The notes beneath the pieces are model-generated. The model was not told where the DNA came from, made no database searches, and saw only the letters and a list, made by a program, of their open reading frames with translations. DNA of 64,000 nt from positions 17,910,706 to 17,974,705 of the forward strand of contig CM067356.1 of the NCBI GenBank assembly GCA_034190875.2. Direction: 5' to 3'. The stretch comes from Urechis unicinctus. Taxonomy: Eukaryota > Annelida > Polychaeta > Xenopneusta > Urechidae. A program made the position numbers and the translations under genes. Positions 4,301 through 62,415 of this stretch are shown in pieces; position 1 is the stretch's first letter, and every line of letters starts with the position of its first letter.

Positions 4301-7300
4301 AGCTATTAAAAACACGTCATAACGAGACATCTAATAAGAACACGTCATAACGAGACAGCTATTAAGAACACGTCATAACGAAACAGCTATTAAGAACACG
4401 TCATAACGAGACAGCTATTAAGAACACGTCATAACGAAACAGCCCACTGACTAGATTCTGAGGTCAGTAACCTCCAGAATAATAAGTCGATTAGAGGTCA
4501 CTAGTTATGACGACATGTTAATCTTGGTTATAACACTAAAGAGTCAATTATTAGTTAAAGCAAGAACACAAATAGCAAGCTGAATATTAGGTAATTCACT
4601 TAATACAAATCATTGACCTTTATTACACGATCACCGTGATCGATTGAAATGTACAAGTTGACTAACTCTTGTATTGATAGTCAAGTCACCAACTCACTCT
4701 GACTCTGTTACATAAAGATGCATCAATGCAATGAACGGTCATACCTCGCCTGTCGTGTCGAAAGCGGCGTCATAATGGTTACTAAATGCCATCATAGCGG
4801 CCGACAGCACGAAGAAGCAGACAAGCAACAGCAACATAGCAGCGGATGCCAGCGCCACAGACAACCACGTGACAACATCGCCGCCCAATGCCACCCCCAC
4901 CAACCTGTGACGTCATCACAAACAGATGGTTGTCGGCAATAATAAATAACGATGACAAATTGAACTACAAGTGCTGGTGAGCCCGCTGAACACGACAAAT
5001 CAAATGGTCACTTTAGGAGAGCTACTGTGTTTCGTATGCTACTGTTCATGGCGCGCACCAGACAGACAACAGAAAGTTTAAAAAAAGCCAACATGACGTG
5101 ACATTTGTGTTTCAACATGTTAACTACTTACGTTTCGTTTCGCCACCGAGTGAAGGTCACCTTAGTGGGGATGAGGGTCGTGTTGGTGTCGTCCACCAAT
5201 AGCTGGACGGTGGGTACGAGGACTGCGAGGACGAGACCGCAGCTGAACAGAGTGGCCGCCGCGCCCACGTAACCCAGGATGATGTAAAGCCGCGTCTGAG
5301 GGCATATACCAGGTAGATGTTAAATGCGATCTGATGATAAGGTTATGCCAAGTGTGAATGGAGGTGATCAGCAGGCCAGGTGATGTCAGGTGAAAATGAA
5401 GGTGAATATCTGACCTTGAATTATCAGTTGTATATGGAGGTGATAAGCTGGCGAGGAAATATCAGGTGTAACTTATGATGATCAGCAGGCAAGGAAATGT
5501 CAGGTGAGAATAGAAGTGATAAGCTGGCAAGGAAATGTCAGGTGTAATTTGAGTTGATCAACTAGTCAGATGATGTCAGGTGTAATTTGAGGTGATTGTT
5601 AATCTCATGTGTGAACGGAAGTGATCGGCTAATCAGGTCAGTTCAGGTGTTAATAAAGGTTATGTAATAAACATGCGAATGGGGAAAAAAGCAATCGAAT
5701 ATATGAAGATGGATCCAGATGAAGAGGTGGAAAAGCTGCCGGGTTACCTGGCAGTCCGAGAGCCGGGCAACAAAGCGACTATTAACGTCTTTACATAGAA
5801 GGGTTATGCAGCCTTTGTCATAACTAGACAGCCTTGTTGAGGAGCTCGTGTACCTGTGCATATACAAGGTATGAACTGGGGAATCAATCACATCGGCCAA
5901 GAATGATTCCGTCTGTGCTCACCTGCTCACCCAGTCAACTTATGTCGAGAAACTAATTGAATGACGGTCGATACTAAGAGAATAACGTGACATTGTTTGT
6001 CCTCGACAGGCACTCTTCTTTGTTTAGCACTGTTCACAACATAGTTGATTCGAGTGACTTCTACGTAAGCACAAGTCGCCTGTTGTCAATATAACCAGAT
6101 AACTCTCCCAGTTAAAAGATGAAATCGGTCAAATATAGCGGTAACACTGGGGTCAAGCCAGCCTAACATGAGCGAAGCACATGGATTTGCATTGTCCTGC
6201 CGGCCGCTATCTTCAATGTATACATAAACCCAAGGGGGACAACGATTTCGCCACCAGCTCACCACAAATCTCACCTAAACCATCTTTTGTCCCGTTAACG
6301 AGCCTGGCGCGCCCCATAGCCATTGAGAATAAGTTCTGCTACCTAACAAAACCATCCGCCCCGACATTTGCCACTTTAAAGAGTACTTTTTTCGAGTTCA
6401 AACGCTATTTTAGCCGTTTAGGCGATTTACTGTACCCGGAAGTTTCTCTTTGTCTGCCCATCGTCGGGGGAAAAGAAATCGCGAGCTCTGATTGGAGCTC
6501 GTAATTAGATTGTCCAATTAGAGCTCGCAGGCCAATGTAAATCTCTGTGGAGTGAAGGACGTTGAATCGAGCCAGTGAGTTCAAAAATCAGCAAGCGACG
6601 CATTGTTACGCTTTTAGTCAGGTTGTAATTATTCTCGGATATATCCGGCGCTGGCGTTGCATAACGCTGTTATGACCCGGGATATCAACATCAATAAATA
6701 CACCCTCCACAAAGATTGAGATTTAAAAGAGAATCGAAGTTAACGACTAACGCAGCTCTTAAAGGTAAACACGGAGACGTTGAGCGACTTTTACTAGTGG
6801 GCCTATGCGTCTCGCGACGTATTGCGCACTAACTTGAGTTCGGCGGTTCTTTGCCAGAGACAACATGCTACCACAACTACTGGTCTTTCTTTAAGCCCGA
6901 TAATAGCACACCACGGAGATCCAATGGTAAATACTTGAAGATAAAGTTGTTTCACTCACTTTTAAATTATCCAGGTATCTCGCCTTGTGTACAGCACCTG
7001 TAATTCCCATCGTTAACACCTATAATCAGATAGGGGAGGGTCAGCCATCTCATTGGTTCACATTATGTATCCTAACTACTTTAAATGATTTATAAAAGAA
7101 AGCGCTGGCATGAATTATTAATTTTATCTACAACCAAGTTATATGATTTTCCTTACCAGCGCTCCGGTCCACAGTAGACAGAAATATTCATGCCAGTACA
7201 GAAGCAGCACTCGGACAAGTCCAAGAATCAGCAGGAGTGGTCCCGCCACCAAGAACAGCCAAAACGGCAACCGTTCCTCGTGGAGTCGTCTGCTGCGGAA

Positions 7301-7928
7301 CATTGGATCGCCATCTAACAACATAGATTTACTGCTGCCGTTCATTTTCTCACTTGGGTACAATTTTTTATCCTTCATGCCTTTTCTATTATAGAGAGAG
7401 TCTCTCGCGAGAGAGCCTGAATTTAACGAGAGCTGATCCAGTTTCTGTCGTCTGCTTTCTTCTTGCTCTTTCTTCTTCTTGCGCAGTGTGTCGGCAAATT
7501 CTGGCGTTATTTTAGGTGTGTCCCCTCGAATTTTCCGCCCTCGACCTGTCGATCCGCCCACGGAATCCTTCGTGCTGAAACTTTGCATCTTCTCCTCCTT
7601 GCGTTCGTGGACGCTTTTGCTGCGACGAAGACGTCGACCTAAACTGTGTGAGCTCTGAGTGGAGACTGTTCCCGATAGCGTGGCCACTTCCTGTTTGTAG
7701 CGATTTGCACGTTGCTTGAATCGGGCTTTGTTGTTCTCTCGCTTGGGGTCGTAACTTCGGTAACTCTCAACTTCGGGCTCGGAAAACCCAAGGTTACGAA
7801 TGTCTTCCTTTCCAGATTTGCCATGTCGGAGAGGGAATGTCCCGTCCCGATCCGTAACGAAGATGGTTCCATCACAAGATAAGGATACATCCGGAATAAG
7901 ATTGCTGCGATGTTTGTTAAGCGTCATG
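1341..7928 (-). CDS. Multi-pass membrane protein with C-terminal CD20/MS4A-like module (7 exons)
   Basis: Minus-strand gene built by eye. Coding exons in order are 7928-7157, 5295-5132, 4904-4745, 4146-4030, 3493-3434, 2220-2106 and 1510-1341. Every intron is GT-AG and all phases agree (0, 2, 0, 0, 0, 1), giving about 518 residues from the ATG at 7927. The first exon encodes a long charged, Ser/Arg/Lys-rich segment, presumably cytoplasmic, ending in a hydrophobic helix (LPFWLFLVAGPLLLILG). The next two exons carry one helix each (YIILGYVGAAATLFSCG; SAAMLLLLVCFFVLSAAMM). The last four exons carry four shorter helices, including HSPAWCGAM joined to VILAGFVSICYGKRPDRKG, which resembles the second helix of CD20/MS4A-like proteins (P-x-W-x-G...G-x-x-S). 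The tail ends CCSPSSSDWSS. The function is unknown and the family link is tentative. The exact acceptor of exon 4 is uncertain (4146 or 4131). A further in-frame ATG at 7978 lies in a minisatellite and is probably intronic. Confidence 0.72.
2640..3355. repeat. Minisatellite, ~25-bp units, in an intron of the membrane protein gene
   Basis: About 27 variable copies of a unit with core CACCTCGACACTCCTTTGTC lie between exons 3493-3434 and 2220-2106 of the minus-strand gene. The lack of stops makes long open frames on both strands (up to 298 residues), which are not genes. Copy lengths vary through loss or gain of the CTCCTTTGTC part. Confidence 0.92.
4196..4442. repeat. 28-bp minisatellite
   Basis: About nine copies of a unit with core AACACGTCATAACGA followed by GACAGCTATTAAG. 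It lies in the intron between exons 4904-4745 and 4146-4030 of the minus-strand gene. Each unit holds a CACGTCA element similar to half a CRE. Confidence 0.88.
5325..5645. repeat. Degenerate ~45-bp tandem repeat
   Basis: Six to seven diverged copies with the shared words GTGATCAGCAGGC, AAGGAAATGTCAGGTG and TAATTTGAGGTGAT. It is in the first internal intron of the minus-strand membrane protein gene, just upstream (in gene sense) of exon 5295-5132. Confidence 0.75.
5900..7150. other. Intron of the membrane protein gene, with a hairpin at 6480-6528
   Basis: Apart from one strong inverted repeat (GCGAGCTCTGATTGGA facing TCCAATTAGAGCTCGC, 15 of 16 pairs, 16-base loop) nothing is recognised. A 107-residue plus-strand open frame at 6181-6504 runs into the hairpin and has no recognisable motif. 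Confidence 0.55.
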
Positions 7929-7959
7929 CTGATCAGGTGAATTACCACGAGTAGACTTA

Positions 7960-8285
7960 TCAACAGGTGAGTTTCCATGCACCGCGAATTGTCTAATCAA
8001 CAGGTGAGTTTCCACGCACCGCGAAGAGTCTAATCAACAGGTGAGTTTCCACGCACCGCGAAGAGTCTAATCAACAGGTGAGTTTCCACGCACCGCGAAT
8101 AGTCTAATCAACAGGTGAGTTTCCACGCACCGCCAAGAGTCTAATCAACAGGTGAGTTTCCACGCCCCGCGAAGAGTCTAATCAACAGGTGAGTTTCCAC
8201 GCACCGCGAAGAGTCTAATCAACAGGTGAGTTTCCACGCACCGCGAAGAGTCTAATCAACAGGTGACTTTCCACGCACCGGGAAG
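7960..8285. repeat. 37-bp minisatellite at the 5' border of the first coding exon
   Basis: About nine near-identical copies containing AATCAACAGGTGAGTTTCCA and CGCACCGCGAAGAGTCT. It abuts the acceptor of the first coding exon of the minus-strand membrane protein gene. Each unit contains CAGGTGAGT, a perfect 5' splice-site word on the plus strand (opposite to the gene). Confidence 0.93.
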
Positions 8286-8849: not shown

Positions 8850-9087
8850 TCACTAGAACCTCGTGGAGTGGACGACGTGAAAAAGGCTATTCTTACGGAA
8901 GTTACGGTGAATTATTACGTCATCACTAAAATTATTACGTCATCACTCCTTGTGGAGTGGACGACATAAAAAAGGCTTTTGTTACGGTGGTACCGGGAAT
9001 TATTACGTCATCACTACAACCATGTGGAGTGGACGACGTGAAAAAGGCTTTTGTTACGGTGGTACCGGGAATTATTACGTCATCACT
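8850..9087. repeat. 72-bp minisatellite, left segment
   Basis: Three and a fraction copies of the unit seen again at 16843-17700 (words GGACGACGTGAAAAAGGC, TTACGGTGGTACCGGGAA, TTACGTCATCACT). The array is interrupted after CATCACT at 9087 by the retrotransposon copy that starts at 9088. Confidence 0.9.
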
Positions 9088-11606
9088 CCTCAAAAGATTA
9101 TACATATACTAATTTTGCTTTAAATCAGATGTCTTGTATCGACCATTTTCTAGTTAGTGATAATGTTTTCAGTAAGTTGCTATGCAGTAATGTTATTCGT
9201 GACCCAACAAACCCGTCAAATCATAATGCTATATTCATCACAATAGATGTAAATATTGACAACGTTATGTCTACAGATAGTCAGGGATTCCTGCGAGATG
9301 ATCGGCTCTCGTGGAGTCAGGCAACAGAGGTAGATGTTAATCGGTACAAGAGTGAATTGGATATTTTGCTTGATGGTGTGTTTGTATCGCATGCTGTGTT
9401 TCAATACACCGATAAGCGGTGCCGTGATAGCAATCACAAAACCGCTATTGATGCATTTTGTTATTCAATTGTTGGCTGTTGTACTCAAGCTGGTAAAAAA
9501 AACTATTCCGTCAAAGAAGCCTGTTTCAAGGAAAATTACGGGATGGTTAGAGATTGTAAAACCAGAGAAAGAACGATCACTTTTCTGGCATTGGATTTGG
9601 ATCGAGTGTGGCAAACCTAACAAAGGCACTGTGTATGACATAATGAAGCAGTCACGTCATAAATATCATTATGCCGTACGCGCAGCCCAAAAAAAATTAG
9701 TTCGATATAAAGAAGGCAAAACTGGCTGAAAACGCATGTAGTAATACAGACTTTTGGCGTGAACTAAAAAAGATCAATCCAAACTGTAAGAGTGTACCTA
9801 CTGTGGTAGATAATGCAAGTGGACCAGTGCCTATTGCAAACCTTTTTCTGGATAAATACTCGGCGTTATTCAATAGTGTTCCCACAAAGGATAATGAAAT
9901 GCGTGATGTGATGAAAGCGGTTAATGCTGGTATTAATTATGACAGTGCAAGATATGATGTTGTTACATCATCTGTTTTATCTGAATGTATAGGAAAATTG
10001 AAGAGTAACAAAAGCGATGGCAATCGTGAGCTTTATTCTGACCATTTGATTTACGGGACGCCCAAACTTGCTGGTCTCTTATGTAAACTATTCAGTGCTA
10101 TGATTTCACATGGCCATACAGCTGATAATTTATTAAATTCAACGATTGTTTCGATACCAAAAGATATGCGATCATCATTAAGTTGTAGTGATAATTACAG
10201 GGGAATTGCATAATGTAGTTCAATTTGTAAAGTTTTAGATATGATAATTCTTAAACAGTATGGCAATGTTTTATGTACGTCTGATCTTCAATTTGGCTTC
10301 AAAAAGGGACATTCTACAATCCTTTGCACGACTGTATATAAAGAAACAATTAGTTATTATACACAAAGAAATAGTGATGTTTTTAGTTGTCTGTTAGGTG
10401 CTAGTAAAGCCTTTGACAGGGTACATTATGGAAAATTATTCAAATTGCTATTGCAGCGTAAAGTGCCTCCGCTTATAGTTAGGTTTCTTATGGATAGCTA
10501 TTCGAGACTATATCTGTTGAATGGAATGCATGCTTATCAAAAGAGTGTCATGTATCAAATGGTGTTAAGCAAGGTGGTGTCATATTATTTACTGCGTACA
10601 TTGATGAGCTGATACAAAGGTTAAAAAAGTCTGGACTAGGCTGTCATATAGGCAGCGAATATGTTGGTGCGCTTGGTTACTCAGTCCAAGTCTCATTGCA
10701 CTGAACAATATGTTGAAAATATGTGAACGATTTGCTGATGAATATAACGTAGTTTTCAATTCTTTGAAAACAAAATGCATAAAATATGGCAGGGCAGTAA
10801 ATGAATTTGATAAGGTGATATTGTATGGCTCTACTATTGAATGGGCTACAACTATTAAACACTTGGGGAACGTCATTGATAACAAGTTGAATGATTATAG
10901 TGATTGCACATCAAAATGTTCTATGTTTAATGTTGCTTTTAACAAAATGATGGGGAACTTTGGAGAGTTGCATAAAAACACATTGTGTAAATTATTCAAT
11001 TCCTATTGCTGCAGTTTTTATGGCTCCCAGTTATGGACCATTGATTCTGATGGTTATAGAAAAATATGTGTTCAGTGGAATAAGGCTGTTAGGCGAATAC
11101 TCAACCTTCCAATTGCTTCGCACACTTGGGTACTGGGGCCATTAAGTGGCCAACTACACATTAGTGTTTCCTTACGCATAAAAACGCTGAAAATGATTGT
11201 TCAAATGAATCACAGTGACAATGCAGTAGTTAAGTATGTGATCAAACATGCTTGTTCTAATGCCCTTTCACCTTTGGGTCACAATATTGCTTACCTTAGA
11301 CACAAATACAGCATTAATGTACATAATGAGGTGGGGTTCAATATCACACAAATTATCAAGAAAGAGTCGTTAACAGATGAACAGAATGCTTTGGTCTGTA
11401 TCTTAAATACATTGTTTTGTGTGTAAAAACAATGAAATTATGATTGATGAATTTGACGATGAAATGATTTATTTGATGATACAAGATATTTTAGTATCGT
11501 AACAGTTTTATCTCTTTTTCCGTTGAATGTAGCACTATAGTTTAAATTTATGTATCACAATTATTGTTTATGCAGGTACCTTGAGTACGAAATAAACATA
11601 TATATA
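9088..11606 (+). mobile_element. Non-LTR retrotransposon fragment, tandem copy 1 (inactive)
   Basis: A 5'-truncated LINE remnant. It begins in the C-terminal part of an APE-type endonuclease (CIDHFLVSDNVF, SNHNAIF), continues into reverse transcriptase (DNYRGIA, LQFGFKKGHST, SKAFDRVHYGKL, HVSNGVKQGGV in copy 2) and ends in AATAAACATATATATA with no poly(A) tail. It is broken by frameshifts, by a stop after NYRGIA and by replacement of the first catalytic Asp (expected DASKAFD, read GASKAFD). Unique to this copy is an 18-base deletion after GCGCTTGGTTA, near 10678, that removes the YTDD active-site motif. It also has the 4-base loss near 10508 shared with copy 3. It keeps the NKSDG codon that copies 2 and 3 have lost. 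The clade was not determined. Confidence 0.9.
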
Positions 11607-11682: not shown

Positions 11683-14222
11683 CCTCAAAAGATTATACAT
11701 ATACTAATTTTGCTTTAAATCAGATGTCATGTATCGACCATTTTTTCTAGTTAGTGATAATGTTTTCAGTAAGGTGCTATGCAGTAATGTTATTCGTGAC
11801 CCAACAATCCCGTCAAATCATAATGCTATATTCTTCACAATAGATGTAAATATTGACAACGTTATGTCTACAGATAGTCAGGGATTCCTGCGAGATGATC
11901 GGCTCTCGTGGAGTCAGGCAACAGAGGTAGATGTTAATCGGTACAAGAGTGAATTGGATATTTTGCTTGATGGTGTGTTTGTATCGCATGCAATACACCG
12001 ATAAGCGGTGCCGTGATAGCAATCACAAAACCGCTATTGATGCATTTTGTAATTCAATTGTTGGCTGTTGTACTCAAGCTGGTAAAGAAACTATTCCGTC
12101 AAAGAAGCCTGTTTCAAGGAAAATTACGGGATGGTTAGAGATTGTAAAACCAGAGAAAGAACGATCACTTTTCTGGCATTGGATTTGGATCGAGTGTGGC
12201 AAACCTAACAAAGGCACTGTGTATGACATAATGAAGCAGTCACGTCATAAATATCATTATGCCGTACGCGCAGCCCAAAAAAAAATTAGTTCGATATAAA
12301 GAAGGCAAAACTGGCTGAAAACGCATGTAGTAATACAGACTTTTGGCGTGAACTAAAAAAGATCAATCCAAACTGTAAGAGTGTACCTACTGTGGTAGAT
12401 AATGCAAGTGGACCAGTGCCTATTGCAAACCTTTTTCTGGATAAATACTCGGCGTTATTCAATAGTGTTCACACAAAGGATAATGAAATGCGTGATGTGA
12501 TGATGAAAGCGGTTAATGCTGGTATTATTATGACAGTGCAAGATATGATGTTATTACATCATCTGTTTTATCTGAATGTATAGGAAAATTGAAGAGTAAC
12601 TAAAGCGATGGCAATCGTGAGCTTTATTCTGACCATTTGATTTACGGGACGCCCAAACTTGCTGGTCTCTTATGTAAACTATTCAGTGCTATGATTTCAC
12701 ATGGCCATACAGCTGATAATTTATTAAATTCAACGATTGTTTCGATACCAAAAGATATGCGATCATCATTAAGTTGTAGTGATAATTACAGGGGAATTGC
12801 ATAATGTAGTTCAATTTGTAAAGTTTTAGATATGATAATTCTTAAACAGTATGGCAATGTTTTATGTACGTCTGATCTTCAATTTGGCTTCAAAAAGGGA
12901 CATTCTACAATCCTTTGCACGACTGTATATAAAGTAACAATTAGTTATTATACACAAAGAAATAGTGATGTTTTTAGTTGTCTGTTAGGTGCTAGTAAAG
13001 CCTTTGACAGGGTACATTATGGAAAATTATTCAAATTGCTATTGCAGCGTAAAGTGCCTCCGCTTATAGTTATGTTTCTTATGGATAGCTATTCGAGACA
13101 GACTATATCTGTTGAATGGAATGCATGCTTATCAAAAGAGTGTCATGTATCAAACGGTGTTAAGCAAGGTGGTGTCATATTATTTACTGTGTACATTGAT
13201 GAGCTGATACAAAGGTTAAAAAAGTCTGGACTAGGCTGTCATATAGGCAGCGAATATGTTGGTGCGCTTGGTTATACTGATGACATTACCTTACTCAGTC
13301 CAAGTCTCATTGCACTGAACAATATGTTGAAAATATGTGAACGATTTGCTGATGAATATAACGTAGTTTTTAATTCTTTGAAAACAAAATGCATAAAATA
13401 TGGCAGGGCAGTAAATGAATTTGATAAGGTGATATTGTATGGCTCTACTATTGAATGGGCTACAACTATTAAACACTTGGGGAACGTCATTGATAACAAG
13501 TTGAATGATTATAGTGATTGCACATCAAAATGTTCTATGTTTAATGTTGCTTTTAACAAAATGATGGGGAACTTTGGAGAGTTGCATAAAAACACATTGT
13601 GTAAATTATTCAATTCCTATTGCTGCAGTTTTTATGGCTCCCAGTTATGGACCATTGATTCTGATGGTTATAGAAAAATATGTGTTCAGTGGAATAAGGC
13701 TGTTAGGCGAATACTCAACCTTCCAATTGCTTCGCACACTTGGGTACTGGGGCCATTAAGTGGCCAACTACACATTAGTGTTTCCTTACGCATAAAAAAA
13801 CGCTGAAAATGATTGTTCAAATGAATCACAGTGACAATGCAGTAGTTAAGTATGTGATCAAACATGCTTGTTCTAATGCCCTTTCACCTTTGGGTCACAA
13901 TATTGCTTACCTTAGACACAAATACAGCATTAATGTACATAATGAGGTGGGGTTCAATATCACACAAATTATCAAGAAAGAGTCGTTAACAGATGAACAG
14001 AATGCTTTTGGTCTGTATCTTAAATACATTGTTTTGTGTTAAAAACAATGAAATTATGATTGATGAATTTGACGATGAAATGATTTATTTGATGATACAA
14101 GATATTTTAGTATCGTAACAGTTTTATCTCTTTTTTCCGTTGAATGTAGCACTATAGTTTAAATTTATGTATCACAATTATTGTTTATGCAGGTACCTTG
14201 AGTACGAAATAAACATATATAT
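11683..14222 (+). mobile_element. Non-LTR retrotransposon fragment, tandem copy 2 (inactive)
   Basis: Same element as copy 1 at about 97-99% identity by eye. It has the longest reverse-transcriptase frame of the three (12832-13806), including TISVEWNACLSKE, SNGVKQGGV-ILFTVYIDEL and GYTDDITLLSP. It carries the shared defects (stop after NYRGIA, Asp-to-Gly at the first catalytic position, missing LSP after QGGV). It also has its own breaks: an 8-base deletion near 11992 in the linker after the endonuclease, extra A residues near 12290 and 13800, an extra ATG triplet near 12503 and a 2-base loss near 12527. A TAA replaces the Lys codon of NKSDG at 12601, shared with copy 3. Confidence 0.9.
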
Positions 14223-14297
14223 ACTACAACCACGTGGAGTGGACGACGTGAAAAATGGTTTTGTTACGGTGGTACCGGGAATTATTACGTCATCACT

Positions 14298-16842
14298 CCT
14301 CAAAAGATTATACATATACTAATTTTGCTTTAAATCAGATGTCATGTATCGACCATTTTCTAGTTAGTGATAATGTTTTCAGTAAGGTGCTATGCAGTAA
14401 TGTTATTCGTGACCCAACAATCCCGTCAAATCATAATGCTATATTCTTCACAATAGATGTAAATATTGACAACGTTATGTCTACAGATAGTCAGGGATTC
14501 CTGCGAGATGATCGGCTCTCGTGGAGTCAGGCAACAGAGGTAGATGTTAATCGGTACAAGAGTGAATTGGATATTTTGCTTGATGGTGTGTTTGTATCGC
14601 ATGCTGTGTTTCAATACACCGATAAGCGGTGCCGTGATAGCAATCACAAAACCGCTATTGATGCATTTTGTAATTCAATTGTTGGCTGTTGTACTCAAGC
14701 TGGTAAAGAAACTATTCCGTCAAAGAAGCCTGTTTCAAGGAAAATTACGGGATGGTTAGAGATTGTAAAACCAGAGAAAGAACGATCACTTTTCTGGCAT
14801 TGGATTTGGATCGAGTGTGGCAAACCTAACAAAGGCACTGTGTATGACATAATGAAGCAGTCACGTCATAAATATCATTATGCCGTACGCGCAGCCCAAA
14901 AAAAATTAGTTCGATATAAAGAAGGCAAAACTGGCTGAAAACGCATGTAGTAATACAGACTTTTGGCGTGAACTAAAAAAGATCAATCCAAACTGTAAGA
15001 GTGTACCTACTGTGGTAGATAATGCAAGTGGACCAGTGCCTATTGCAAACCTTTTTCTGGATAAATACTCGGCGTTATTCAATAGTGTTCACACAAAGGA
15101 TAATGAAATGCGTGATGTGATGAAAGCGGTTAATGCTGGTATTAATTATGACAGTGCAAGATATGATGTTATTACATCATCTGTTTTATCTGAATGTATA
15201 GGAAAATTGAAGAGTAACTAAAGCGATGGCAATCGTGAGCTTTATTCTGACCATTTGATTTACGGGACGCCCAAACTTGCTGGTCTCTTATGTAAACTAT
15301 TCAGTGCTATGATTTCACATGGCCATACAGCTGATAATTTATTAAATTCAACGATTGTTTCGATACCAAAAGATATGCGATCATCATTAAGTTGTAGTGA
15401 TAATTACAGGGGAATTGCATAATGTAGTTCAATTTGTAAAGTTTTAGATATGATAATTCTTAAACAGTATGGCAATGTTTTATGTACGTCTGATCTTCAA
15501 TTTGGCTTCAAAAAGGGACATTCTACAATCCTTTGCACGACTGTATATAAAGAAACAATTAGTTATTATACACAAAGAAATAGTGATGTTTTTAGTTGTC
15601 TGTTAGGTGCTAGTAAAGCCTTTGACAGGGTACATTATGGAAAATTATTCAAATTGCTATTGCAGCGTAAAGTGCCTCCGCTTATAGTTAGGTTTCTTAT
15701 GGATAGCTATTCGAGACTATATCTGTTGAATGGAATGCATGCTTATCAAAAGAGTGTCATGTATCAAACGGTGTTAAGCAAGGTGGTGTCATATTATTTA
15801 CTGTGTACATTGATGAGCTGATACAAAGGTTAAAAAAGTCTGGACTAGGCTGTCATATAGGCAGCGAATATGTTGGTGCGCTTGGTTATACTGATGACAT
15901 TACCTTACCTTACTCAGTCCAAGTCTCATTGCACTGAACAATATGTTGAAAATATGTGAACGATTTGCTGATGAATATAACGTAGTTTTTTTTTAATTCT
16001 TTGAAAACAAAATGCATAAAATATGGCAGGGCAGTAAATGAATTTGATAAGGTGATATTGTATGGCTCTACTATTGAATGGGCTACAACTATTAAACACT
16101 TGGGGAACGTCATTGATAACAAGTTGAATGATTATAGTGATTGCACATCAAAATGTTCTATGTTTAATGTTGCTTTTAACAAAATGATGGGGAACTTTGG
16201 AGAGTTGCATAAAAACACATTGTGTAAATTATTCAATTCCTATTGCTGCAGTTTTTATGGCTCCCAGTTATGGACCATTGATTCTGATGGTTATAGAAAA
16301 ATATGTGTTCAGTGGAATAAGGCTGTTAGGCGAATACTCAACCTTCCAATTGCTTCGCACACTTGGGTACTGGGGCCATTAAGTGGCCAACTACACATTA
16401 GTGTTTCCTTACGCATAAAAACGCTGAAAATGATTGTTCAAATGAATCACAGTGACAATGCAGTAGTTAAGTATGTGATCAAACATGCTTGTTCTAATGC
16501 CCTTTCACCTTTGGGTCACAATATTGCTTACCTTAGACACAAATACAGCATTAATGTACATAATGAGGTGGGGTTCAATATCACACAAATTATCAAGAAA
16601 GAGTCGTTAACAGATGAACAGAATGCTTTGGTCTGTATCTTAAATACATTGTTTTGTGTTAAAAACAATGAAATTATGATTGATGAATTTGACGATGAAA
16701 TGATTTATTTGATGATACAAGATATTTTAGTATCGTAACAGTTTTATCTCTTTTTCCGTTGAATGTAGCACTATAGTTTAAATTTATGTATCACAATTAT
16801 TGTTTATGCAGGTACCTTGAGTACGAAATAAACATATATATA
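14298..16842 (+). mobile_element. Non-LTR retrotransposon fragment, tandem copy 3 (inactive)
   Basis: Third tandem copy. Its endonuclease-to-linker frame is the longest (14255-14938 with the preceding satellite) and its C-terminal frame runs to 16738. It shares the NKSDG stop with copy 2 but the 4-base deletion near 15718 with copy 1. It has its own 5-base duplication (CCTTACCTTAC) just after the YTDD motif near 15905, and extra T residues near 15985. The 3' end again reads AATAAACATATATATA, followed directly by 72-bp satellite. Confidence 0.9.
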
Positions 16843-23224: not shown

Positions 23225-25030
23225 TGTTGTTGTTTTAATGATATTTAGACTTAACGAAGTCCTGTTCGCTTAAGCTCGTTTGATATTTGGAATTGACGAA
23301 TTTCGATATTTGGGCTTACGGAAGTCCTGTTCTTGTTTGATATTAGGACTCGTCCCAAAGGGTAGTGCGTCCTGTCCTTACTTACGCACACGTTCTTGTT
23401 GTTGTTGATTTAATGATATTTAGACTGAACGAAGTCCTGTTCGCTTAAGCTCGTTTGATATTTGGACTTGACGAAGTCCTGTTCGCTTAAGCTCGTTTGA
23501 TATTTGGGCTTAAGGAAGTCCTGTTCGCTTAAGCTCGTTTGATATTAGGACTTAACGAAGTCCTGTTCGCTTAAGCTCGTTTGATATTAGGACTTAACGA
23601 AGTCCTGTTCGCATAAGCTCGTTTGATATTTGGACTTAACGAAGTCCTGTTAGCTTAAGCTCGTTTGATATTTGGGCTTAAGGAAGTCCTGTTCGCTTAA
23701 GCTCGTTTGATATTAGGACTTAACGAAGTCCTGTTCGCTTAAGCTCGTTTGATATTTGGACTTAACGAAGTCCTGTTCGCTTAAGTTTTGTTTGATATTA
23801 GGACCTAACGAAGTCCTGTTCGCTTAAGCTCGTTTAATATTTGAACTTAACGAAGTCCTGTTCGCTGAAGCTCGTTTGATATTTGGACTTGACGAAGTCC
23901 TGTTCGCTTAAGCTCGTTTGATATTTGAACTTAACGAAGTCCTGTTCGCTGAAGCTCGTTTGATATTAGGACTTAACGAAGTCCTGTTCGCATAAGCTCG
24001 TTTGATATTTGGACTTAACGAAGTCCTGTTAGCTTAAGCTCGTTTGATATTTGGACTTAACGAAGTCCTGTTAGTTTAAGCTCGTTTGATATTTGAACTT
24101 AACGAAGTCCTGTTCGCTTAAGCTCGTTTGATATTTGGACTTAACGAAGTCCTGTAAGCTTAAGCTCGTTTGATATTTGGACTTAACGAAGTCCTGTAAG
24201 CTTAAGCTCGTTTGATATTTGGACTTAACGAAGTCCTGTTAGTTTAAGCTTGTTTGATATTTGAACTTAACGAAGTCCTGTTCGCTTAAGCTCGTTTGAT
24301 ATTTGAACTTAACGAAGTCCTGTTCGCTGAAGCTCGTTTGATATTTTGACTTAACGAAGTCCTGTTAGCTTAAGCTCGTTTGATATTTGGACTTAACGAA
24401 GTCCTGTTCGCTTAAGCTCGTTTAATATTTGAACTTAATGAAGTCCTGTTCGCTGAAGCTCGTTTGATATTTGGACTTAACGAAGTCCTGTTCGCTTAAG
24501 CTCGTTTAATATTTGAACTTGACGAAGTCCTGTTCGCTTAAGCTCGTTTGATATTTGGACTTGACGAAGTCCTGTTAGCTTAAGCTCGTTTGATATTTGG
24601 ATTTAACGAAGTCCTGTAAGCTTAAGCTCGTTTGATATTTGGACTTAACGAAGTTCTGTTAGTTTAAGCTCGTTTGATATTTGAACTTAACGAAGTCCTG
24701 TTCGCTGAAGCTCGTTTGATATTTGGACTTAACGAAGTCCTGTTAGCTTAAGCTCGATTGATATTTGGACTTAACGAACTCCTGTAAGCTTAAGCTCGTT
24801 TGATTTTTGGACTTAACGAAGTCCTGTTAGTTTAAGCTCGTTTGATATTTGGACTTAACGAAGTCCTGTTAGCTTAAGCTCGTTTGATATTTGGACTTAA
24901 CGAAGTCCTGTAAGCTTAAGCTCGTTTGATATTTGGACTTAACGAAGTCCTGTTAGTTTAAGCTCGTTTGGTATTTCGACTTAACGAAGTCCTGTTAGCT
25001 TAAGCTCGTTTGATATTTTGACTTAAGCTC
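23225..25030. repeat. 42-bp satellite array, ~43 copies
   Basis: Uniform 42-bp period. Core words are GACTTAACGAAGTCCTGTT, GCTTAAGCTCGTTTGATATT; the first contains the inverted halves GACTT and AAGTC and the second the palindrome GCTTAAGC. Variants (TTCGCTTAAG, TTAGCTTAAG, TAAGCTTAAG, TTCGCTGAAG) recur in blocks, which suggests higher-order copying of several units at a time. It ends about 650 bp beyond the stop codon of the neuropeptide gene. Confidence 0.95.
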
Positions 25031-25374
25031 TTTTTCTGATTGATTGCTAGTCTACAAGCTTCGCTGTCCTAGCTTTGTTTATGCAGTTGCGTTTTGTAGA
25101 CTCCTTTACAACAACCACATACATGATGCAAAGCCCCAGTGAACTTACACAGAAAGACAAATTCTTGTTAAATTCAAACTTTATTTTTATACTTTTTCTT
25201 ATTGCTCCAACAAAGGTGAAAGGCAACCATAGATCATGTGACTTCCGGTTGAACTGGGCATGGGAAGCGACGTCTCCTCCGAATTCAACACAAAACCACA
25301 GGACAACTACTAGAGCATGTATCATAATAAGAACAGGATCCTGTACCACGCTGCATCATGACTAGTACACGCTG

Positions 25375-25674: not shown

Positions 25675-28600
25675 CTAAGACCGGGGCGTCCCCGTGCCGA
25701 GTCGTCGCTTCATTTCTTTGATCAGTGACTCATAGTCGTCTGTTTGTGGTTCATGGACGGACTGCGAGGATTTTCCAATGTCCCACCAATGACTTCCGGT
25801 TCCAAATGGTCGCTTGGAGGCGCTGATGGCCTCAGTATGTCTCAAGTTACTCAGGAGAGCAGCGGTTTCATCGGCTTCCTCCATCTCTTGAATCTGCTTT
25901 TCTGCGAGAGAGTTCGACTTAGATTTCGGTATACTTCCTAACCGTGACAAGCTGTCTATAAAATGGCGTCTGGGGAAATTCCAGTTGGACCCTACAAAAG
26001 GGCGTTTGTCGGAATCAGTCAAATCCGAATCTTCAAACGAATCTTTATCAAAACCTTGAAAGTCTCTAACTTCAAATGGTTCCTTCGTCAGCTCTTCCCT
26101 GAAAAGTCGTTTTTCATCCAACTTCCAATTAGCACCGCCAAAGGGTCGCTTTTCATCTACCTTCCAATTAGCACCGCCAAAGGGTCGCTTTTCATCTACC
26201 TTCCAATTAGCACCGCCAAAGGGTCGCTTTTCATCTACCTTCCAATTAGCACTGCCAAAGGGCTGCTTTTCATCCAACTTCCAATTAGCACCGCCAAAGG
26301 GCCGCTTTTCATCCAACTTCCAATTAGCACCGCCAAAGGGTCGCTTTTCATCTACCTTCCAATTAGCACCACCAAAGGGCCGTTTTTCATCCAACTTCCA
26401 ATTAGCACCACCAAAGGGTCGCTTTTCGTCAAACTTCCAATTAGCACCGCCAAAGGGCCGCTTTTCATCCAACTTCCAATTAGCACCGCCAAAAGGCCGC
26501 TTTTCATCCAACTTCCAATTAGCACCGCCAAAGGGCCGCTTTTCATCAAACTTCCAATTAGCACCGCCAAAGGGTCGTTTTTCATCCAACTTCCAATTAG
26601 CACCGCCAAAGGGCCGCTTTTCATCCAACTTCCAATTAGCACCGCCAAAGGGCCGCTTTTCATCAAACTTCCAATTAGAACCGCCAAAGGGCCGCTTTTC
26701 ATCAAACTTCCAATTAGAACCGCCAAAGGGCCGCTTTTCATCAAACTTCCAATTAGAACCGCCAAAGGGCCGCTTTTCATCAAACTTCCAATTAGCACCG
26801 CCAAAGGGTCGTTTTTCATCCATCTTCCAAATAGCACCGCCAAAGGGCCGCTTTTCCTCAAACTTCCAATTAGAACCACCAAAGGGCCGCTTTTCATCCA
26901 ACTTCCAATTAGAACCGCCAAAGGGTCGTTTTTCATCAACCTTCCAATTTGAACCGCCAAAGGGTCGTTTTTCATCGACCTTCCAATTTGAACCGCCGAA
27001 GGGCCGCTTTTCATCAGTATTTTGGGAACTTGAAATGGATCTACCAATATTCCAGTTTCCGCTTCCGAACGGTCGCTTCATGGCCGAGCTCTGTGGGTCT
27101 GAGCCATCTTCTTCTTGGACATTGCCATCAACATTAAAACGGAAGAATTCTGCTCCATCTGCAAGGTGAGCTGGCTGCTCTGCTGAGAAACCTTCGCCGA
27201 CCACCTCTGGCACGCGTCTTGCTCGAAGGCCTGCAACAGCAACACATAGCTCGTAGCATTTGGCTGGTGTTGTGAGGGTATTTCTTGTTTCTCTTCTGTA
27301 GTGGCCTGAGCAGTATACTCAGACAGATCAAGACTTCACTGCGTACGAGATATATTTATTGACTACGATACCAACACCGCGTTATTACCGGTCTTATGCT
27401 GTATATATTGGAGTCGCGTCCACCCGCTTCGGATCCTGGGGGTAAGCTCCCGAAACTTGGACGCTCCTTCAATATATACACAATCCCATGTCCCCTCATG
27501 AGACCAGCACTACCTGTAATTGGCTGACCAATCACAGGCGGCCACTTTACTGACCGATTACAACGAGGCCCATACATATTATGTTACAGTGGAGTATACC
27601 TTTAAGGGCATGATGTGGAGTTTAAAAATAAACGGATTAAACCATACAACACTGGTAACCTGCCCCCGTGCATTGCTCACGTTTGATCTCATTAGGAGAG
27701 ACGCTATGGTTTTTTTTATTCTCGTGAGTAAAATATGTTTCGGGGTAGCATCGCACGGATTGGTAGAACTCCCCAGTCTGCATATTTAGGTCACGATCGT
27801 CATTGAAGAATCGACTTGTCTGATATTGCATCATCAACATTGAGACTTCTTTCCGTACTTTCTATTGCGCAGTGAAATACAGTTGATGATATGGTATGCA
27901 CATTTTCTACTTCATTTCAAGGAGAACTATGACCTTTTTTCAAGTGCAGTCTGATTGGTTAAGCTTGACATAATTAACATAAATCCGGTTTTGTTCTCTT
28001 TCAAATGATTCGACTGGAAAGTCAAGACTGAAAGTCAATATTTTTACACGTGGCCGCCGCCATAACTGTTTATATGATGCCACAGATCGGCTGTGGTGCG
28101 GTGCTGCTGACAACTTCCTTCTTAACTGAGCTACAGACCAGAAGTGTTAATAATCTTCCGCACAACTGCCAACAGGCTAACGGGTGAAACGTTGATTTCG
28201 CGAGCAACATCAATAAGGACCGCTGTTACTGGTAGCATTCGGAACGAGTTTGGTCAAATTTATCAACACTGTTCTGTTCCCCTTCCATTAACGCCTTCCA
28301 CTTTACAACTTTTGAGTCGGATTGTATACCCTATCCGATCGGGAACGGCTACGTTATGATCTCAAATCACGACTCAAGTCACTAAAAAACCACGAACAAC
28401 GCGCTAAGAAAAATGGAATAATCTGTATGGGGAGGGATTAAAGGTGTTCAGGGAAACGCCCCCTCGATATTCATGTCAAGGCTTCCACGGAGGAGAGACC
28501 GATGTCAGTGTGCCTTTACAGATGCGAATGCCCTCACAGCGCCTCCTATCGTCAGTCGCTATCCACATGAACCTCGTCAATAATCGATGAAATCAAGCCT

Positions 28601-29490
28601 GCTACCAACCCGAACAGATCAGCAGAACACGACTGTTACAGCGGCCATTAACGAACCTTAATAGCAGTAATACCCAATCGATCCTTCACACGGCCTGAGG
28701 TTCGCTGTCTGGCCATCAGAGCTGTCCCAGCATTTATCAGGAAGGATCGCATCGCCGAGCGACACCTACCTCATTAGCATGCATAGGATACGGATGCCCG
28801 GATCAGCAATCTACTCAGTAGCAGCTAGACTAACGCCATCACCTATCTAGATGCAAATTGTCTGCATCTGAATGAGGAGCCTCCCCCAACCGACCTGGGA
28901 TCAGCGAGATCTCGTCTAAACTAACCGACAGAGGGCACCACCCACATGAGCGGTCACCTGACATTACACCCACAGTGCCAGAGTCCGCAAATCACCAAAT
29001 ACGCACGTAATCCAGCTACTCCGATTTGTGTGTTGTGACCATGTTTCTCTGGGGGTAACACTTCGACATCTGACTACAACAGCAGCTGCTGTACCAACGA
29101 ATCCGTTTACACTCAAATCATACATAATCGTGTTCACCATATATTCCTCGAATGTGTTTCCTTTTATCTGTTCTAACAACTTGACGATCCTGACCAAAGT
29201 GAAACATAACCTTCTAAACAACCTACTTGCTACCAAACACAGAGAACACCTAGCTAGGTGAGTGACGGACTCTCTATATCGCTCCTTCATGCTACCTACA
29301 CAAAACGGGCATCTGGGATTTTTTTCCTGACTTCAACGCTGGCGGTACTGGGTGCGACAATACTTACCCCCTGTGGATTCCTTAGCGATGACCCCATCAT
29401 CCAAAGAGATCACCATGGCAACAACAAATAATTTCCATGACAACACACCCGCCACTGCCATCATTGCGGTGCAGTCTGATGATGGCCAGT
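25675..29490 (-). CDS. Multi-copy neuropeptide precursor (PFGGxNWK-type peptides), 575 residues
   Basis: Two coding exons, 29490-29368 (ATG at 29464) and 27305-25675, are joined by a GT-AG intron with matching phase 1; the acceptor at 29491 follows a TTTTTTCAG tract. Residues 1-27 form a signal peptide (hydrophobic LFVVAMVISL, likely cut after GVIA). An acidic spacer with KCYELC and an RARR site follows. PFGSGNWNIGR comes next, then 23 tandem 13-residue units, PFGG(S/A)NWKxDEKR with x = V, L, F or M, spanning residues 134-432. After an acidic spacer come PFVGSNWNFPRR and PFGTGSHWWDIGK. Lys-Arg sites predict release of peptides such as PFGGANWKLDE by prohormone convertases in the secretory pathway. 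The first and last family members end in Gly-Arg or Gly-Lys, so they could be amidated. One unit junction reads EKQ instead of EKR. No named molluscan neuropeptide family was recognised. The architecture resembles pedal-peptide or FCAP-type precursors, but the sequence does not. Confidence 0.88.
26107..27003 (-). repeat. Coding 39-bp tandem repeat of the peptide precursor (23 units)
   Basis: In-frame repeat inside the neuropeptide exon. Ser-type units (GGSNWK) cluster at the 5' end and Ala-type (GGANWK) at the 3' end, with runs of the same x residue. This indicates spread by unequal exchange. The opposite strand also stays open for 329 codons, which is a by-product. Confidence 0.95.
27306..29367. 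other. Intron 2 of the neuropeptide gene
   Basis: GT-AG intron on the minus strand (donor GTAAGTATT at 29367, acceptor TGCTCAG ending at 27306). It holds only short open frames and no recognisable element. Confidence 0.6.
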
Positions 29491-29505
29491 CTGAAAAAAC
29501 ATATG

Positions 29506-60137: not shown

Positions 60138-62415
60138 ATACTCGCGCTGAATAAGCATCCTCCTCGCCTTACTTGTGCTGAATCAGCATCCTCCTCGCCT
60201 TACTTGTGCTGAATCAGCAACCTCCTCGCCTTACTTGTTCTGAATCGGCATCCTCTTCGCCTTACTTGTTCTGAATCGGCATCCTCTTCGCCTTACTCGC
60301 GCAGAATCAGCATCCTCCTCGCCTTACTAGCGCTGAATCAGCATCTTCCTTGCCTTACGTGCGCTGAATCAGCATTCTCCTCGCCTTACTTGCGCTGAAT
60401 CAGCATCCTCCTCACCTTACTTGCGCTGAATCAGCATCCTCCTCGCCTTACTCGCGCAGAATCGGCATCCTCTTCGCCTTACTCGTGCTGAATCAGCATC
60501 TTCCTTGCCTTACTTGCGCTGAATCAGCATTCTCCTCGCCTTACTTGCGCTGAATCAGCATCCTCCTCACCTTACATGCGCTGAATCAGCATCCTCCTCG
60601 CCTAACTTGCGCTGAATCAGCACCCTCCTCACCTTACTTGTGCTGAATCAGCATCCTCCTCCCCTTGTGCTGAATCAGCATCCTCCTCACCTTACTTGTG
60701 CTGAATCAGCATTCTCCTCGCCTTACTTGCGCTGAATCAGCATCCACCTCGCCTAACTTGCGCTGAATCAGCACCCTCCTCGCCTTACTTGCGCTGAATC
60801 AGCATCCTCCTCACCTTACTCGTGCTGAATCAGCATCCTCCTCGCCTTACTTGTGCTGAATCAGCATCCTCCTCGCCTAACTTGCGCTGAATCAGCATCC
60901 TCCTCACCTTACTTGCGCTGAATCAGCATCCTCCCCTCCTAACTTGCGCTGAATAAGCATCCTCCTCACCTTACTTGCGCTGAATCAGCATTCTCCTCAC
61001 CTTACTCGCGCTGAATCAGCATCCTCCTCGCCTTACTTGTGCTGAATCAGCATCCTCCTCGCCTAACTTGCGCTGAATCAGCATCCTCCTCACCTTACTC
61101 GCGCAGAATCAGCATCCTCCTCGCATTACTTGTGCTGAATCAGCAGCATCCTCGCCTTACTTGCGCTGAATCAGCGCCCTCCTCACCTTACTCGCGCTGA
61201 ATCAGCATCCTCCTCGCCTTACTTGTGTTAAATCAGCATCCTCCTCGCCTTACTTGTGCTGAATCAGCATCCTCCTAGCCTAACTTGCGCTGAATCAGCA
61301 CCCTCCTCACCTTACTTGCGCTGAATCAGCATCCTCCTCACCTTATTCGCGCTGAATCAGCATCCTCCTCGCCTTACTTGCGCTGAATCAGCATCCTCCT
61401 AACCTTACTTGCGCTGAATCAGCACCCTCCTCACCTTACTCGCGCTGAATCAGCATCCTCCTCGCCTTACTTGTGCTGAATCAGCATCCTCCTCGCCTAA
61501 CTTGCGCTGAATCAGCATCCTCCTAACCTTACTTGCGCTGAATCAGCACCCTCCTCACCTTACTCGCGCTGAATCAGCATCCTCCTCACCTTACTTGCGC
61601 TGAATCAGCATCCTCCTCGCCTTACTTGCACTGAATCAGCATCCTCCTCGCCTTACTTGTGCTGAGTCAGCATCCTCCTCGCCTAACTTGCGCTGAATCA
61701 GCATCCTCCTAACCTTACTTGCGCTGAATCAGCACCCTCCTCACCTTACTCGCGCTGAATCAGCATCCTCCTCACCTTACTTGCGCTGAATCAGCATCCT
61801 CCTCGCCTTACTTGCGCTGAATCAGCATCCTCCTAACCTTACTTGCGCTGAATCAGCATCCTCCTTGCGCTTGCGCTGAATCAGCACCCTCCTCACCATA
61901 CTCGCGCTGAATCAGCATCCTCCTCGCCTTACTCGCACTGAATCAGCACCCTCCTCACCTTACTTGTGCTGAATCAGCATCCTCGTCGCCTTGTGCTGAA
62001 TCAGCATCCTCCTCACCTTACTCGCACTGAATCAGCATCCTCCTCACCTTACTCGCACTGAATCAGCATCCTCCTCACCTTACTTGCGCTGAATCAGCAT
62101 CCTCCTCACCTTACTCGCGCTGAATCAGCATCCTCCTCACCATCCTCGCGCTGAAATCAGCATCCTCCTAACCTTACTCGCGCTGAATCAGCATCCTCCT
62201 CACCATCCTCGCGCTGAAATCAGCATCCTCCTAACCTTACTCGCGCTGAATCAGCATCCTCCTCACCATACTCGCGCTGAATCAGCATCCTCCTAACCTT
62301 ACTCGCTCTGAATCAGCATCCTCCTCGCCTTACTCGCGCTGAATCAGCATCCTCCTCGCCTTACTCGCGCTGAATCAGCATCCTCCTCGCCTTACTCGCG
62401 CTGAATCAGCATCCT
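60138..62415. repeat. 31-bp minisatellite, ~73 copies
   Basis: Units read TTGCGCTGAATCAGCATCCT and CCTCGCCTTAC. TGCGCTGAATCAGC holds imperfect dyad symmetry (GCTGA...TCAGC) in every unit. It starts about 45 bases after the presumed cleavage site of the carbonic anhydrase transcript. Confidence 0.96.

Follow-up and report, generated by a model that had tools for sequence, protein, structure and literature searches.

The closest described systems are two bivalve peptide families whose members start with PFG or PFV. PFGx8amide of the oyster was named as a new family, one of repetitive peptides, in 2014 (Stewart et al. 2014, PMC4200219), and PFVx7amide of the scallop Patinopecten yessoensis, reported in 2018 with 21 variants, is equated by its authors with oyster PFGx8amide (PMC5996578). 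The string “PFG” does not occur in the main texts of the lophotrochozoan surveys PMC6425005 and PMC8557429, nor in those of PMC8398477 and PMC7737342.

We analyzed a whole stretch of 64,000 nucleotides (the window), whose minus strand carries a gene with the same kind of peptide start. The coding part of a putative signal-peptide exon (29368..29464; MMAVAGVLSWKLFVVAMVISLDDGVIAKESTG) runs from an ATG at 29464 to a consensus, phase-1 donor after 29368 (GGGG/GTAAGT) and joins in phase to a 547-codon stop-to-stop frame ending at 25675. Residues 12-22 of the exon 1 product form a hydrophobic core on the Kyte-Doolittle scale (2.45), which makes the product signal-like by hydropathy. As read directly from the sequence, the same exon likely includes a 5′ UTR piece (29465..29490, minus strand) behind the acceptor-like site TTTTTTCAG (29491-29500), which is T-rich and suggests a further non-coding exon upstream. 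The phase-1 intron spans 27306..29367 (27231-29367 with the alternative acceptor), and the main coding exon, stop included, spans 25675..27305 (or 25675-27230), both on the minus strand and defined by the in-phase join and the open frame. A previous, sequence-only reading had joined 29368 to 27305 to give a 575-residue product: the length is reproduced and the join is in phase, but it is not unique, as the acceptor at 27230 (TTGCAG/G) is equally good, also in phase and gives 550 residues. Both acceptors are YAG with 11/18 pyrimidines each, and additional AGs are in phase too. If the acceptor at 27305 is used, the segment between the two sites adds 25 residues, two cysteines among them. An AATAAA at 25180..25185 (minus strand) is a possible poly(A) signal.

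The repeat finder and the reading of the frame together place 23 tandem 39-bp units, PFGG(A/S)NWK(L/F/V/M)DE-KR, at 26107..27003 on the minus strand. Each unit is 13 residues long, and the 23 copies comprise nine distinct 11-mers: PFGGANWKLDE (eight copies), PFGGANWKFDE, PFGGSNWKFDE and PFGGANWKVDE (three each), PFGGSNWKVDE (two) and four singletons. Position 9 is L in nine units, F in seven, V in six and M in one, and position 5 is A in 16 and S in seven; two main positions thus vary, rather than mainly one as had been stated. The units end in KR in 22/23 cases and in KQ in 1/23 (before 26262), where the cut may not be made. Reading of the same minus-strand frame also bears out the three variant peptides reported at the ends, one before the array and two after it: PFGSGNWNI-G-R (27040..27072), with an amidation-type end at a single R; PFVGSNWNFP-RR (25966..26001); and PFGTGSHWWDI-G-K (25771..25809), which is PFG plus 8 residues and an amidation glycine. 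All 23 array units (one of them after KQ) and two of the three end units start with PFG, the third end unit being PFV. An amidation signal (G before a basic site) is present in 0/23 array units and 2/3 end units, and the linkers are acidic. The earlier description of a signal-like, dibasic-bounded multi-copy precursor therefore stands: exon 1 is in phase, there are 23 units and KR closes 22 of them.

This locus very probably encodes a neuropeptide precursor. We consider it, at somewhat better than even odds, to be a secreted multi-copy precursor gene of the PFG type, single-copy as far as searched, with PFGx8amide and PFVx7amide as the closest described systems. It may be a strongly diverged, array-expanded relative of these, with amidation lost in the array. 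It would work like a PFGx8amide-type precursor, and the two may share an ancestor.

A database search of the product, which the sequence-only reading had asked for, returned KR-PFG precursors, two named oysters among them. Our protein searches covered a collection of 5.8 billion proteins, each scoring only the candidates with the most words in common with the query (8000, 7999 and 8000); because candidates are chosen by word sharing, matches sharing KR-PFG are favored by design. The shortened product as query found at least two proteins at E<=0.001, P0001 and P0002. With P0002 as query, at least eight proteins matched, P0002 itself being one and Saccostrea echinata LOC133196650 and Pinctada imbricata FSP39_013588 two others, and a six-row profile gave at least 12 matches at E<=0.1, 5 of which are rows of the query alignment. 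All significant proteins among the matches listed are KR-PFG multi-copy precursors. Nine oyster-type proteins, P0002-P0010, have KR-PFG peptides mostly with G before the basic site (64/78 distinct units end in G), and in each of P0008, P0009 (Pinctada) and P0010 PFG units stand beside PFV and PFT units, much as PFG and PFV occur together in the window gene. Their amidated distinct units have 10 residues after PF in 43/67 cases and 9 (equal to PFG-like plus 8) in 8/67, so the published PFGx8 pattern fits only part of them. We infer that P0002-P0010 are the PFGx8amide family, from this pattern and the two named oysters rather than from comparison with the published sequences. P0001 reads KR-PFGGNMIFSRPREE-KR, with seven KR-PFG copies and free-acid EE-KR ends, and P0011 and P0012 have KR-PFGG starts and three KR-PFG copies each; possibly it is these three to which the window gene is really most closely related.

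The strength of this kinship was assessed with shuffle controls, 60 shuffles per protein for 12 proteins. When everything except the dibasic sites was shuffled, no shuffle (0/60) came up to the observed score of any of the 12 proteins. When the PF(G/V) anchor was left in place as well, 24 to 37 of 60 did so for the nine oyster-type proteins, 1/60 for P0001, 8/60 for P0011 and 5/60 for P0012. What the proteins have in common is thus a PFG start behind KR, and for the oyster-type proteins no likeness beyond that anchor rises above the shuffles. Tests of single units against oyster-type units, using full cores, gave P values of 0.17 for the first unit, 0.165 for the PFV unit, 0.022 for the C-terminal unit and 0.50 and 0.72 for the array, with only the C-terminal unit, 1/5, below 0.05. 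In 18 tests with trimmed ends, the trimming having been chosen after the data were seen, P ranged from 0.010 to 0.27 with 5/18 below 0.05, and the C-terminal unit no longer stood out (0.12 and 0.19). Because only the anchor carries the similarity and the unit tests are mixed, we do not file the window gene as PFGx8amide. The previous claim that the peptides fit no named family holds insofar as membership is unproven beyond KR-PFG; it does not hold insofar as PFGx8amide and PFVx7amide have the same N-terminal signature.

The leading alternative is that the gene is a true neuropeptide precursor of an independent, unnamed family which has the KR-PFG start in common with the oyster-type precursors by convergence. 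That the nine oyster-type proteins do not rise above anchor-kept shuffles speaks for it, as does the DE end with a free acid: 0/23 array copies are amidated, compared with 64/78 oyster-type units ending in G, which we counted against PFGx8amide kinship, as we did the absence of “PFG” from the surveys PMC6425005 and PMC8557429. Six strings from the peptides of the window gene were not found in the literature searched (5.39 million papers), in line with the earlier “apparently undescribed”, nor was PFGG together with “neuropeptide precursor”. No other locus of the genome gave an oyster-type PFG gene at E<=0.01; the best of the 14 matches with E<=1 had an E value of 0.0116. On the other side, the significant proteins among the matches listed are all KR-PFG precursors, though the word-based choice favors them, and the end copies have amidation-type ends, one being exactly PFG+8+G. 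We regard convergence as rather unlikely, and give slightly more credence, still well short of even, to the array peptides forming an unnamed free-acid family, PFGG(A/S)NWK(L/F/V)DE, independent of PFGx8amide, with its own receptor and an unusually large, uniform array.

The genome searched comprises 1,190,315,542 bases in 926 contigs. No second copy of the gene was found at E<=0.001 in these 1.19 Gb. Weaker matches on contigs C16 and C4 were considered as paralogs and rejected as arrays without KR-PFG (motif scan of five regions; repeat finder on three), and two loci considered as oyster-type PFG genes (L016 and L017) proved, when opened, to be minisatellites. A further locus (L036/L037, G000:C10, about 69546617-69547354) is a long tandem repeat reading GARMYHGQR that ends in an N run. 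The genome does encode a MIP/allatostatin B type (Wx7W-amide) precursor (L047, G000:C17:58533000-58538000, plus strand) in a 469-aa open frame, with 13 copies ending MRVW-GKR and one ending QRVW-GKR (counted by eye; KWGSNSMRVW-GKR and relatives) between acidic spacers. We counted this precursor, with its G-KR ends and acidic spacers, in favor of the neuropeptide reading of the window gene. MIP is described as a protostome system in PMC8557429, so its presence on C17 makes the animal a protostome. The more specific “molluscan” of the sequence-only reading is unproven: queries of the genome with APGWamide and PxFVamide, run without a positive control, gave 5 and 3 matches, of which those opened are repeat-like. 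A GnRH pattern and a COX1 stretch, likewise without positive controls, had no match in the genome. The product had no match to a solved structure at E<=1, and neither a tRNA nor an Rfam family reaching its gathering score was found in the window.

It is also conceivable, though very unlikely, that the gene encodes a secreted repeat protein outside signaling (adhesive, mucus, shell or antimicrobial), in which KR would be linker residues. The array is indeed very uniform and unamidated, with a lysine inside the peptide. Against this, KR spacing is strict and the ends are acidic, the diverged end copies carry G-R and G-K, the linkers are acidic, and the Pfam search gave no such protein family. 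One Pfam entry, PF21968, scored above its curated cut-off over the whole protein (31.7 vs 27 bits, E 1.9e-7) with no single stretch passing, and was set aside as a repeat artefact.

Whether the array frame is coding needs more than its openness, which is weak evidence because 39 is a multiple of three and other frames are open too: the array is also open in one plus-strand frame throughout and in two more frames across much of it. We therefore set 30 bases of array unit 3 against each flanking copy in turn. Third codon positions account for 8/11 of the nucleotide differences from the 27072 unit, 7/8 from the 26001 unit and 6/15 from the 25809 unit. Of the six frames, the sense frame preserves the most residues (7, 8 and 5 of 10), closely followed by one antisense frame (5, 7 and 4 of 9). 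Within the array, 8/17 distinct variants are synonymous vs 4.3 expected (P 0.02), and one antisense array frame also looks constrained (10/17 synonymous, P 0.0085). The signal exon, which joins in phase, and the regular dibasic sites favor the sense frame. On the base differences from the diverged flanking copies, which supply the signal, we judge that the array frame is protein-coding. A minisatellite whose 39-bp unit leaves frames open by chance is scarcely credible: tandem repeats abound in the window (141 overlapping rows from the repeat finder over its whole length) and further 39-bp arrays exist elsewhere in the genome, but the way in which third codon positions differ between the array and its diverged flanking copies, and the in-phase signal-peptide exon with its consensus donor, oppose it.

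Among other features of the window are large minisatellites at 23414-25026 (42 bp x 38 copies) and 60139-62415 (31 bp x 74 copies). The stretches 9042-11426, 11931-13806 and 14252-16738, judged by the resemblance of their open frames, are a broken LINE-like element in three copies lying nearly in tandem, within which a 333-aa frame (12805-13806) matches the reverse transcriptase RVT_1 (E 2.7e-17). A 285-aa open frame on the minus strand (7139-7996) has a hydrophobic stretch towards its C terminus; it gave no Pfam match at E<=0.1 and resembles a piece of an ordinary gene.

If the locus is a neuropeptide precursor as we favor, the putative signal peptide would direct the product into the secretory pathway, where a prohormone convertase would cut at the KR sites, followed by trimming. 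The array would then yield up to 23 free-acid 11-mers, PFGG(A/S)NWK(L/F/V)DE, and the ends PFGSGNWNI-amide, PFVGSNWNFP and PFGTGSHWWDI-amide, with amidation presumably at G-R and G-K. The internal lysine is possibly another single-basic cut. Once released, the peptides would serve as hormones or transmitters, probably by way of a GPCR that recognizes what is constant in them, PFG at the N terminus and the aromatic residue. Probable receptor contacts are the PFG start, the tryptophan and the hydrophobic residue at position 9, the freest of the positions. If the gene is a PFGx8amide relative, a family described from bivalves has here lost amidation in the repeats and kept it at the ends, which would offer a natural experiment on the receptor's requirements. 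If it is independent, one more orphan neuropeptide family is gained, whose well-defined peptide could be synthesized and assayed.

The peptide motif of pedal peptide/orcokinin is not known to have a PFG start. Precursors of this type, which are named in PMC4200219 and PMC6425005, resemble the window gene in having many non-amidated copies. Scallop PFVx7amide shares the PFV start, found in PFVGSNWNFP of the window gene, and differs in being amidated, judged by its name. The likeness to oyster PFGx8amide lies in the PFG start and in amidation, again by name, which the end copy PFGTGSHWWDI-G-K matches as PFG plus 8 residues plus an amidation glycine. The array peptides differ from it as free acids ending in DE, and from the oyster-type units in the length of the core up to the hydrophobic residue: 7 residues after PF in the array vs 10 in 43/67 oyster-type amidated units. 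P0001, P0011 and P0012 (KR-PFGGNMIFS(R/K)...) have longer peptides in fewer copies, 7 in P0001 or 3 in the others vs 23 in the window gene. They share with it the KR-PFGG start, to which P0001, the only protein with a score almost clear of the anchor-kept shuffles, adds free-acid EE-KR ends.
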